The position numbers and the translations under genes were made by a program. DNA of 61,826 nt. Origin: a bacterium (GTDB lineage Bacteria; Patescibacteriota; JABMPQ01; JAUVWW01). The notes under the pieces were generated by a model. The model did not search any database, was not told the DNA's origin, and worked only from the letters and a program-made list of their open reading frames with translations. Of this stretch, positions 52,579 through 55,867 are shown piece by piece; positions within the stretch are counted from its first letter, which is position 1; every line of letters starts with the position of its first letter. The stretch lies in assembly GCA_030603885.1 (NCBI GenBank), contig JAUVWW010000006.1, positions 1 through 61,826 of the forward strand, written 5' to 3'.

Positions 52579-53310
52579 CTATTTTGTCTTAGGAGATTTT
52601 TTTCTTGATTTTGTTGCAATAAAGATTAAAGCTCCTAATCCCACAATAACAGCGAGGGCATACCAGCCTCCGCTTATACCCTTACGTGCCTCTGCGGTCA
52701 CTCCCTTCACTTCACCCTCTTCATCTAGAGTGGTATCTATAGGTTTACTTTCAGGTTCAGTGTTGGCAGGAGGGCAGACTTTATCTCCATCCTTACAATC
52801 ATTATCAATCCCATCATCACAGACTTCCTCTGCTTTTGGGTTTATATCAGCATTTGAATCATTACAATCACCTTCATTTTCAGTATAGCCATCTTTATCA
52901 TCGTCTCTATTTTCTGGACAAAGCTCATCCCCATTCTTACAATCATTATCCAGACCGTCTTCACACATTTCTATTGCCTTAGGATTTACATTAGCATTAG
53001 TATCGTCACAATCCCCCTGATTTTCTGTATAGCCGTCTTTATCATTGTCTACATCTCTTGGGTCAGGTGGTGGAGGCGTGGGCGGAGGTGTAGGTGGAGG
53101 CACATACTTACACTGAGAGTAATATGGAGCACACTTTGCAGAAAGAGGAGTTCCGTCACAACAAAGATGACCAATATTGCCATCAGAACATTTTTCGGTA
53201 CAAACTCCTCCATGCCAAGAACAACAGCCACTTCTTGCATAAACAGGCAAGCTATACCCAATCGCGAAGATAAGCAGAGCAAGAATTGTTATGAATATAC
53301 CTTTTTTCAT
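52579..53310 (-). CDS. MopE-like metal-binding repeat protein, secreted and anchored
   Basis: The 243 residues have a signal peptide (~1-25, ends PVYAR), a Cys-rich segment (~26-70; SGCCSWHGGVCTEKC, GHLCCDG), a Pro-rich spacer (PPPTPPPTPPPPDP), and two copies of the MopE-type motif (DxDxDGYTENxGDCxDxNAxxNPKAxExCxDGxDNDCKxGD, ~80-160). A linker and a C-terminal transmembrane helix (~215-233; GWYALAVIVGLGALIFIA) with a basic tail end it. The Asp-rich loops should bind Ca2+ or other metals. Such repeats occur in surface and secreted proteins; no enzyme activity is suggested. Confidence 0.83.
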   Translation of the reverse strand: MKKGIFITILALLIFAIGYSLPVYARSGCCSWHGGVCTEKCSDGNIGHLCCDGTPLSAKCAPYYSQCKYVPPPTPPPTPPPPDPRDVDNDKDGYTENQGDCDDTNANVNPKAIEMCEDGLDNDCKNGDELCPENRDDDKDGYTENEGDCNDSNADINPKAEEVCDDGIDNDCKDGDKVCPPANTEPESKPIDTTLDEEGEVKGVTAEARKGISGGWYALAVIVGLGALIFIATKSRKKSPKTK

Positions 53311-53396: not shown

Positions 53397-53508
53397 TAAA
53401 TAAAAAACCACCAAATCTTGCGAGATAGTGGTTATTTGTTATTTTAAATAAAAATGCTAGGTGGATATGCACTTGACAAGGAGGGATGCCAAGGCTCACC
53501 ACCTAGCA
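53397..53508 (-). ncRNA. Candidate small RNA with a CCUCCU apical loop
   Basis: Read on the minus strand, a promoter (TTGACA, 17 bp, TAAACT) is followed about 6 bases later by a stable hairpin. The outer stem UGCUAGGUGG/CCACCUAGCA (10 bp) encloses an inner stem CUUGGCA/UGUCAAG (7 bp, one G-U) and the loop UCCCUCCU. It ends in UUUUUAUUU (53446-53454). A second hairpin AACCAC...GTGGTT with TTTTTT follows (53397-53434) and would be a back-up terminator. The RNA would be about 62 or 112 nt. No ORF fits. It does not match tmRNA, 6S or SRP motifs that I know. Confidence 0.55.
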
Positions 53509-53513
53509 TGTAT

Positions 53514-53542
53514 AGTTTAGCATAAATAAAATTAAATGTCAA
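53514..53542 (-). promoter_or_regulatory. Minus-strand promoter of the candidate small RNA
   Basis: On the minus strand TTGACA (53537-53542) and TAAACT (53514-53519) are exactly 17 bp apart, pointing away from smc into the hairpin region. Confidence 0.6.
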
Positions 53543-53544
53543 GC

Positions 53545-53573
53545 TTGCTTAATTTTTCAAAAAGTGCTAAGCT
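53545..53573 (+). promoter_or_regulatory. Promoter for smc
   Basis: TTGCTT at 53545-53550 and TAAGCT at 53568-53573 are 17 bp apart; the ATG at 53591 leaves a leader of about 10 bases without a Shine-Dalgarno. It runs divergent to the small-RNA promoter. Confidence 0.5.
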
Positions 53574-53590
53574 AAAGCAATCTTACTATT

Positions 53591-55867
53591 ATGTATCTAG
53601 AAAAATTAGAGCTTTTAGGATTTAAATCCTTTGCTCAAAAAACAACTTTAAAGTTTTCTCCAGGCATAACCGCTGTTGTTGGACCAAATGGCTCAGGAAA
53701 GTCAAACATTGCTGATGCTATCAGATGGGTTTTAGGCGAGCAAAGCATGAAGACCTTAAGAGGCAAGAAATCAGAAGATGTTATCTTTTCTGGCTCTAAA
53801 AAGAAATCCAGGCTAGGCTTGGCTGAAGTTGCTTTATATTTAAACAATGAGGATTCACAAATGCCTATTGATTACTCCAATGTTGTTATTGCCAGAAAGC
53901 TAACTAGATCCGGAGAAACAGATTATCTAACCAACAACAATAGGGTTAGACTTTTAGATGTTCAAGATCTTCTCTCTGAAGCTGGTTTTGGACAAAAGAC
54001 CTATTCTGTTATTGGCCAGGGAATGATCGATACTCTTATTTATGCTGGTCCACACGAGAGACTAGAAATGTTTGAGGAAGCAGCTGGCATTAAATCCTAC
54101 CAAATAAAACGTCATCAAGCCTTTTTGAAGCTTAAAGCCACCAAGCAGAATTTAATACGCATCAAGGATATTCTAAAGGAGCTAGCTCCGCGCCTTGGTT
54201 CTCTAAAACGACAAGCCTCTCGGGCTCAAAAAAAAGAAGAGACTCAAAGAAAACTTAAAGAACTTCAGATAAAGTTCTTTAACCATCAATGGAATCAGTT
54301 AGAAAATAAACTTTCAGGTTTTGATAAAAGATGTTCTACTATTTTGCAGGAAAAAGAGAAGCTCCAAAAAATTATACAGGAGACGAGAGATGAAATTGCA
54401 AGACGCGAGAAAGAAATACACGAGTCAAAAACCCAAGAATTAGTCAGGGCCCAGCAAGAAGAATTATATAATCAGAGAAATAAACTTAAAGAAAGTTTAG
54501 CTGTCATGCGGGGTCGGATCCAGATTGAAGAGGAGAGAGAAGCAGCCTCTAGCTCAAGCCCCAGGACCAATCTTTTACCTTTGCTAAAAAAGGTCCAATC
54601 TAGCCTTAAGGAGATTTATCAGGTTCAAGAAGACTTTCAAGAAAGGTTGCATAAATGCAAAGATCTAACATCGTTAGAATATCTTAAAAGTGAAGCCAAA
54701 AATCTCACCACAAGAATTCAGGATTTAATGACCGAGATAGACAAGAATACTCAAAAAGAAAAAAGTAAGAGCCATCAAAAGCTAGATTTAGTTAATGAAA
54801 AAAATAAAATAGAAAAAAAGATTGAAAATTTAGATAAAGAGGTAGATCAATTAAAAGAAAAACTTAGCCAAGAAAATAAAAAGCAAGGAAAAGCCAAACA
54901 AACCATTTTTGATCTAGAGCGAAACTTAAGGCAGACTCAAGATAAACTTGAGGATTTAAAGGATAAGCTAAGAGAAGAAGAAGTAGAAAAAGCACGTTTT
55001 GTAGTTCAAAGAGACAACTTGCAGTCCCAAATTCAAAGCGATCTAGAACTTGAAAGTCTTGATAATCTCTTTTCTGATTTTAAAAAGAAACCTCAAAAGC
55101 TTTCTCTTGAGGAGGAAGAGGAAGCCAGAGATCAAATAGAGAGAATGAAGCGAAGACTGATCCAAATTGGAGAGATAGATCCTCAAGTAACCAAAGAATT
55201 TGAAGAATGTCAAAAAAGACACTCTTTTCTTTCAGGCCAATATGAGGATCTAAAGAAAGCATCCCTTAGTTTGAAAAAAATTATTTCAGAGTTAGATCAA
55301 ACTGCAAGAGAGCAATTCAATGAGGCTTTTTTGAATATCAATAAAAAATTCCAAGAATATTTTAAAATCTTGTTTGGAGGAGGGCGAGCAAAATTGATTA
55401 AACAAATAGTCAACAGTCAACAAGAAAGCGATTCGACAATTTTTTCTTCTGAAGGATTTGCCGAAGGTGAACAGCAACTTGACAATCCGGCAGTTTCCCC
55501 CTACGGAGAATCCGCCGAAGGTAGACAAATATACATTGACATTAAAGCGACCCCTCCTGGAAAAAAGTTAAAGTCGCTAGCTATGCTCTCGGGCGGAGAA
55601 AAAGCTTTAACTTCCATAGCTTTACTTTTTGCTATTATTGCCAATAATCCTTCTCCGTTTATAGTTTTAGATGAAGTTGACGCTGCTTTAGACGAGGCTA
55701 ATTCTCAGCGTTATGCCAAGATTCTAGAGTCCTTATCATCCAAAACTCAGTTTATTGTTATTACCCACAACAGAGAAACTATGAAAAAAGCCAAAGTTTT
55801 ATACGGAGTAACCATGGGAGAAGATGGAGTCTCAAAGCTTTTATCGGTAAAGTTGGACAAGCATTGA
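53591..55867 (+). CDS. smc: Short SMC-family chromosome protein apparently lacking a hinge
   Basis: SMC proteins organise chromosomes as dimers with ATPase heads, long coiled coils and a globular hinge. Here the head is complete: Walker A GPNGSGKSN (31-39), the N-head VLGEQSMKTLRGKKSEDVIFSG, SVIGQGMID, the ABC signature LSGGEKALTSIALLF (~666) and Walker B FIVLDEVDAALDEANS. Total length is 758 against ~1150-1200 usual. Between the heads there are only ~430 residues, coiled coil broken near the middle by SSSSPRTNLLP, with no hinge Gly motifs. In the C-head a ~30-residue insertion (55440-55525, flanked by GCCGAAGGT repeats) and NSQQES precede PPGKKLKSLAMLSGG. No scpA or scpB is near. Confidence 0.9.
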   Translation: MYLEKLELLGFKSFAQKTTLKFSPGITAVVGPNGSGKSNIADAIRWVLGEQSMKTLRGKKSEDVIFSGSKKKSRLGLAEVALYLNNEDSQMPIDYSNVVIARKLTRSGETDYLTNNNRVRLLDVQDLLSEAGFGQKTYSVIGQGMIDTLIYAGPHERLEMFEEAAGIKSYQIKRHQAFLKLKATKQNLIRIKDILKELAPRLGSLKRQASRAQKKEETQRKLKELQIKFFNHQWNQLENKLSGFDKRCSTILQEKEKLQKIIQETRDEIARREKEIHESKTQELVRAQQEELYNQRNKLKESLAVMRGRIQIEEEREAASSSSPRTNLLPLLKKVQSSLKEIYQVQEDFQERLHKCKDLTSLEYLKSEAKNLTTRIQDLMTEIDKNTQKEKSKSHQKLDLVNEKNKIEKKIENLDKEVDQLKEKLSQENKKQGKAKQTIFDLERNLRQTQDKLEDLKDKLREEEVEKARFVVQRDNLQSQIQSDLELESLDNLFSDFKKKPQKLSLEEEEEARDQIERMKRRLIQIGEIDPQVTKEFEECQKRHSFLSGQYEDLKKASLSLKKIISELDQTAREQFNEAFLNINKKFQEYFKILFGGGRAKLIKQIVNSQQESDSTIFSSEGFAEGEQQLDNPAVSPYGESAEGRQIYIDIKATPPGKKLKSLAMLSGGEKALTSIALLFAIIANNPSPFIVLDEVDAALDEANSQRYAKILESLSSKTQFIVITHNRETMKKAKVLYGVTMGEDGVSKLLSVKLDKH

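Follow-up and report, generated by a model that had tools for sequence, protein, structure and literature searches.

Introduction

In the Rhizobiales and Rhodobacter, the small RNAs CcsR / RSs0680a and SmelA075-SmelA099 carry CCUCCUCCC hairpin loops that are constant while their stems vary, and action at the ribosome-binding site has been proposed for them (PMC3927594). Alphaproteobacterial small RNAs (sRNAs) with this loop often arise by processing of a longer transcript that includes a DUF1127 gene, CcaF1 (PMC10253847), and are Hfq-dependent (PMC7866481). In Staphylococcus, RNAIII and the Rsa RNAs pair with Shine-Dalgarno (SD) sites through accessible UCCC motifs (PMC3861533). For the Patescibacteria, a huge and mostly uncultured group, our literature search found no description of a small regulatory RNA.

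Here we analyse a locus in a stretch of 61,826 nucleotides (the window) from a patescibacterial genome of 825 kb in 12 contigs, labelled G000. From sequence comparison, the locus is very probably a conserved, independently transcribed sRNA gene whose product probably acts in trans. An sRNA that holds its anti-SD loop constant while its stem covaries suggests that translation control by base pairing may operate even in reduced genomes. The sRNA is also built from very few parts (promoter, hairpin and U-tract) and offers targets that are directly testable.

The closest parallel is the CcsR/SmelA family, with which the locus shares a C-rich anti-SD hairpin loop that stays constant amid varying stems. 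Those RNAs have several hairpins, whereas the patescibacterial RNA consists of one hairpin, has a promoter and terminator to itself, and displays the loop YCCCUCCU. The CCUCCUCCC motif is not present in any copy, the loops being YCCCUCCU in the members of the order and ACCCUCCU in a more distant genome, G012. A search of the window and its own genome with our final covariance model (R3) found one anti-SD hairpin per transcript or locus, rather than two or more. With the UCCC-loop RNAs of Firmicutes (RNAIII and Rsa) the likeness lies in an unpaired C-rich loop motif. The motif there is UCCC, in contrast to the invariant heptamer CCCUCCU here; RNAIII is also longer and has multiple hairpins, and there is no Rfam relationship. 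No family of Rfam release 15 reached its gathering cut-off with the window copy or with three homologues. The Bacillus sRNA ncr1175 gave a sub-threshold match to the window (27.6 bits against a gathering cut-off of 60, E 0.004), with a similar two-hairpin layout and a different loop. Since none of the three homologues tested matched it, ncr1175 was rejected as a chance resemblance of shape.

Results

The minus-strand RNA unit is flanked by smc, a plus-strand gene with its ATG at 53591, and by a MopE-type gene (minus strand, 52579-53310). It had been labelled an antisense-strand RNA, a term that does not apply: the unit is intergenic, divergent from smc and antisense to no gene. Its sigma-70-type promoter (53542-53514, minus strand) reads TTGACA-17-TGcTAAACT, with the -35 box TTGACA at 53542-53537 and the -10 box TAAACT at 53519-53514, and the hairpin starts about 5 nt further on. 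The consensus boxes and 17-bp spacing given in the preliminary description are thus present, with the addition of the TG of an extended -10 element. The pattern TTGACN-(10-14 nt)-TGnTAnnnT occurs 74 times in G000, compared with 11 times for a reversed-pattern control, implying that it is the genuine promoter type of this genome. A putative smc promoter read from the sequence, TTGCTT-17-TGcTAAGCT (53545-53573, plus strand), stands back-to-back with that of the sRNA, about 17 nt from the smc ATG, and bears out the divergent arrangement described earlier.

The over-represented extended -10 motif also provides a usable promoter model for the lineage. Gene starts in the window are mixed, with about 12 genes preceded by strong AGGAGG-type SDs and many without an SD; for some genes the promoter lies just 10-20 nt upstream of the ATG.

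The sRNA body, modelled from folds and from covariance-model matches in relatives, occupies 53512-53446 (minus strand) and comprises a single hairpin followed by a 3' U-tract. The predicted transcript is about 60-66 nt long (about 80 nt in G012), with nearly all of its residues paired except for the loop. The hairpin is near-continuous (53509-53454), with a stem of 11 bp + 2 + 2 + 7 bp closing the loop UCCCUCCU; it had been described as 10 bp plus 7 bp, so the hairpin stands and the stem is slightly longer. The outer stem pairs a 5' arm AUGCUAGGUGG (53509-53499), whose GCUAGG does not vary among the order's four members, with a 3' arm CCACCUAGCAU (53464-53454) that leads into UUUUAUUU. The arms of the inner stem, CUUGGCA (53493-53487) and UGUCAAG (53478-53472), show compensatory changes in relatives.

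The apical loop, 8 nt at 53486-53479, contains CCUCCU. Because the 3' end of the 16S RNA within the window is GGATCACCTCCTTTCT (also written ATCACCTCCTTTCT), this hexamer is the anti-SD of the same genome, and the identity that was first noticed is real. In the computed ensembles the loop is fully unpaired for all four members of the order. The 114-nt minus-strand sequence folds at -44 kcal/mol (z = -7.7), a value equalled in none of 200 shuffles; of the two strands, the minus has the more stable fold (-31.7 vs -25.9). Hairpins whose loop contains CCUCC and whose stem has 7 bp or more are not rare in themselves (six in a 322-kb sample of the genome), and it is through its length, promoter and conservation that this one rises above chance.

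The main stem runs into a U-tract, AUUUUUAUUU, at about 53455-53446, so that the stem is its own terminator. The terminator previously reported to follow the hairpin is also found, as a second intrinsic terminator, AACCAC...GTGGTTTTTTT (53433-53402, minus strand), outside the conserved RNA. The segment that carries it (53397-53446; AACCACC...TCTTGCGAGAT...GGTGGTT) has near-identical, terminator-like counterparts scattered through G000, at C1:92187, C1:88104, C2:14748 and C2:15792; in C2, an extra flanking stretch (CCTAAACTAAAAAAGAG.CTAAATAAAAAA) recurs nearby.

Homologues were sought with a covariance model made from the window sequence alone (R1), then with a three-sequence model, and then with R3, which includes G012; the final alignment has five rows. 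With the R1 model, G001 and G003, both of the same order as G000, each gave a single full-length match (E 2.9e-7 for one and 1.3e-4 for the other), and the 51 genomes searched from other orders of the phylum gave none. The three-sequence model added G005, also of the order (E 1.3e-12), and a full-length match in the more distant G012. The E of this match, 5e-4 in one genome, makes its score alone near what chance could give over the 380 genomes searched, and R3 includes it by construction. The G012 copy has the heptamer in its loop, an upstream promoter TTGACT-16-TATCCT and UUUU at the end of its stem, and we regard this genome as carrying a probable relative of the sRNA. The known distribution is thus four of the seven genomes of the order and one probable case elsewhere.

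In the five-row alignment 95.6% of the stem cells are paired and 10 of the 18 stem pairs show two-sided changes; six of the 18 do so already among three members of the order. The covariation score for the five sequences, 0.567, compares with 0.296 in shuffles (0 of 500 as high) and with at most 0.15 for slid structures, almost a fourfold excess over any slid control. The loop heptamer CCCUCCU is invariant in all five genomes. Compensation in the stems around a constant loop had been set beforehand as the test of the RNA, and together with the structure and the promoter it supports, at the level of sequence, the proposal of an independent RNA gene that displays an anti-SD loop.

The model search of the remaining genomes of the phylum, about 370 of the 380, found no further copy, and none was found in the order members G002 (96% complete), G004 (76%) and G006 (79%). 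Incomplete assembly may account for the absence from G004 and G006. G002 lacks the sRNA yet is almost complete, suggesting that the sRNA is probably dispensable. The R3 model found no second copy in the window or its genome, and no homologue was found on viral contigs or plasmids. When GTDB contigs were scanned genome-wide for the pattern, the copies in G001 and G003 were the sole matches, and a promoter-plus-CCCTCCT scan of the 380 genomes, with a spacer limit that missed the window copy itself, gave 41 matches, of which about 30 loci were checked for a hairpin and yielded only known members. At the DNA level, BLAST against 58 relatives recovered nothing but pieces of promoters and terminators. 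Sequence upstream of smc was not conserved among relatives, and synteny with smc was therefore dropped. Three model matches were rejected: L062 and L063, simple GCUAGG terminators, have neither inner stem nor loop, and L060 is short and truncated, with no loop.

Discussion

What might such an RNA do? The mechanism that we think fairly probable is that of a stand-alone trans-acting sRNA of about 65 nt, whose loop would pair with SD sites, preferring AGGAGGG, and so bar the 30S subunit. The end of the -10 box is 6-8 nt from the constant GCUAGG in the members of the order, and farther in G012, where the stem is longer; transcription should thus begin at or beside the first paired base. The RNA would then fold at once into one long hairpin whose stem doubles as an intrinsic terminator, giving a product akin to a stable handle that presents an exposed YCCCUCCU loop. 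Pairing of this loop with SD sites, AGGAGGG foremost, would keep the 30S subunit off those messages. We infer expression, SD pairing, repression and the target set alike. Among mechanisms we favour SD-blocking, for which alphaproteobacterial RNAs with CCUCCUCCC loops and staphylococcal RNAs with UCCC loops provide the analogy.

Computed duplexes bear on which sites would be chosen. Against ordinary SDs the loop forms only 6 bp, at -10 to -11 kcal/mol, compared with -15 to -18 for the 16S tail, so that success at such sites would depend on kinetic competition or on pairing before the ribosome loads. Against AGGAGGG sites it reaches -13 to -16 kcal/mol, approaching or equalling the 16S tail (-13 to -17). 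The first C of the invariant CCCUCCU is absent from the matching 16S position (ACCUCCU), implying that AGGAGGG sites are the preferred partners. This preference fits a selective regulon better than the silencing of every SD-led gene, and on these models a subset of targets is more likely than the whole SD-led class. In the 322-kb sample, sites ahead of a start with 60 open codons number 6 for AGGAGGG, 18 for AGGAGGA and 21 for AGGAGGT, and one of the six AGGAGGG sites falls inside smc. Candidate targets include a gene for a DksA/TraR zinc-finger protein (L221), preceded by an AGGAGGG site, and one for an unnamed membrane-like protein (L224) with a perfect 8-nt match to the loop, AGGAGGGA.

The same scarcity of AGGAGGG at SD positions, with six motif-plus-open-frame cases in 322 kb and one of them within smc, would also suit a loop that serves as the seed for one specific AGGAGGG-containing transcript or sponge RNA, rather than for a regulon; we consider this rather unlikely, though the likeliest of the alternatives. 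Somewhat less probable is a conserved sRNA whose loop imitates the 16S 3' end as a decoy for a protein and tunes ribosome maturation, not mRNA translation. Its partner could be an Era-type ribosome-assembly GTPase, for example, or some other CCUCC-binding protein. Repetition of the 16S sequence CCUCCU in the loop is consistent with this, as is the presence of AUCACC in the 5' strand of three of the five copies, as in the 16S sequence GAUCACCUCC. The AUCACC stretch is mostly base-paired, however, and neither the window copy, which has GUGAGCC, nor G012 contains it; moreover, the leading C of the invariant element does not occur at the corresponding 16S position. We are more doubtful again that an anti-SD-copying RNA of a single hairpin could be a class-level switch that moves translation from SD-led to leaderless messages or back. 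If true, such a switch would act in a minimal-genome lineage in which many genes have a very short leader or none, with strong SDs on a minority.

Could the RNA instead act in cis, as a 5' leader or attenuator for the same-strand gene downstream (52579-53310 or its counterpart)? A same-strand gene does follow in the window, in G003 and in G012, but the downstream genes are unrelated between genomes, and the window gene has a promoter-like site of its own (TTGACT-17-TAAACT, 53369-53341, minus strand). The RNA of G001 is followed by a convergent gene and hence is not a leader. The flanking genes vary throughout: smc with the gene for the MopE-type metal-binding-motif protein; pheS; queH with ftsJ; and sua5 with a SIMPL-family gene. 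None is a linked DUF1127 (ccaF1-like) gene, and shared neighbours (queH, ftsJ) occur only in G001 and G005, two genomes of one family. The differing neighbours and the convergent gene in G001 point to a free-standing gene, and we regard a leader as very improbable.

A sigma-70-like promoter, TTGAC(A/T)-16/17-TANNNT, lies directly upstream of all five copies, and a U-tract follows the stem immediately in four of them, G005 being the exception. The locus thus has a promoter and terminator that do not depend on its neighbours, together with an exposed SD-complementary loop that is constant amid covarying stems. The least credible alternative, an ordinary terminator or chance hairpin between divergent genes with a coincidentally C-rich loop, could draw on the frequency of CCUCC-loop hairpins, which is similar to that of other C-rich 5-mers, and on the 22-25 bits that simple GCUAGG terminators elsewhere reach with the model, but no same-strand gene ends upstream, the hairpin begins right after the promoter, the order's true homologues reach 56-84 bits, and the compensatory changes around a constant loop, the conserved promoters and the differing neighbours all argue for a conserved sRNA.

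Finally, both genes beside the locus have features of their own. The product of the MopE-type gene is signal-peptide-like and has two MopE-type metal-binding motifs. The smc gene (53591-55867) encodes only 758 aa, with an SMC_N match that spans its full length, compared with open frames of about 875-1090 aa in relatives of the order, so that the coiled coil looks unusually short in G000.
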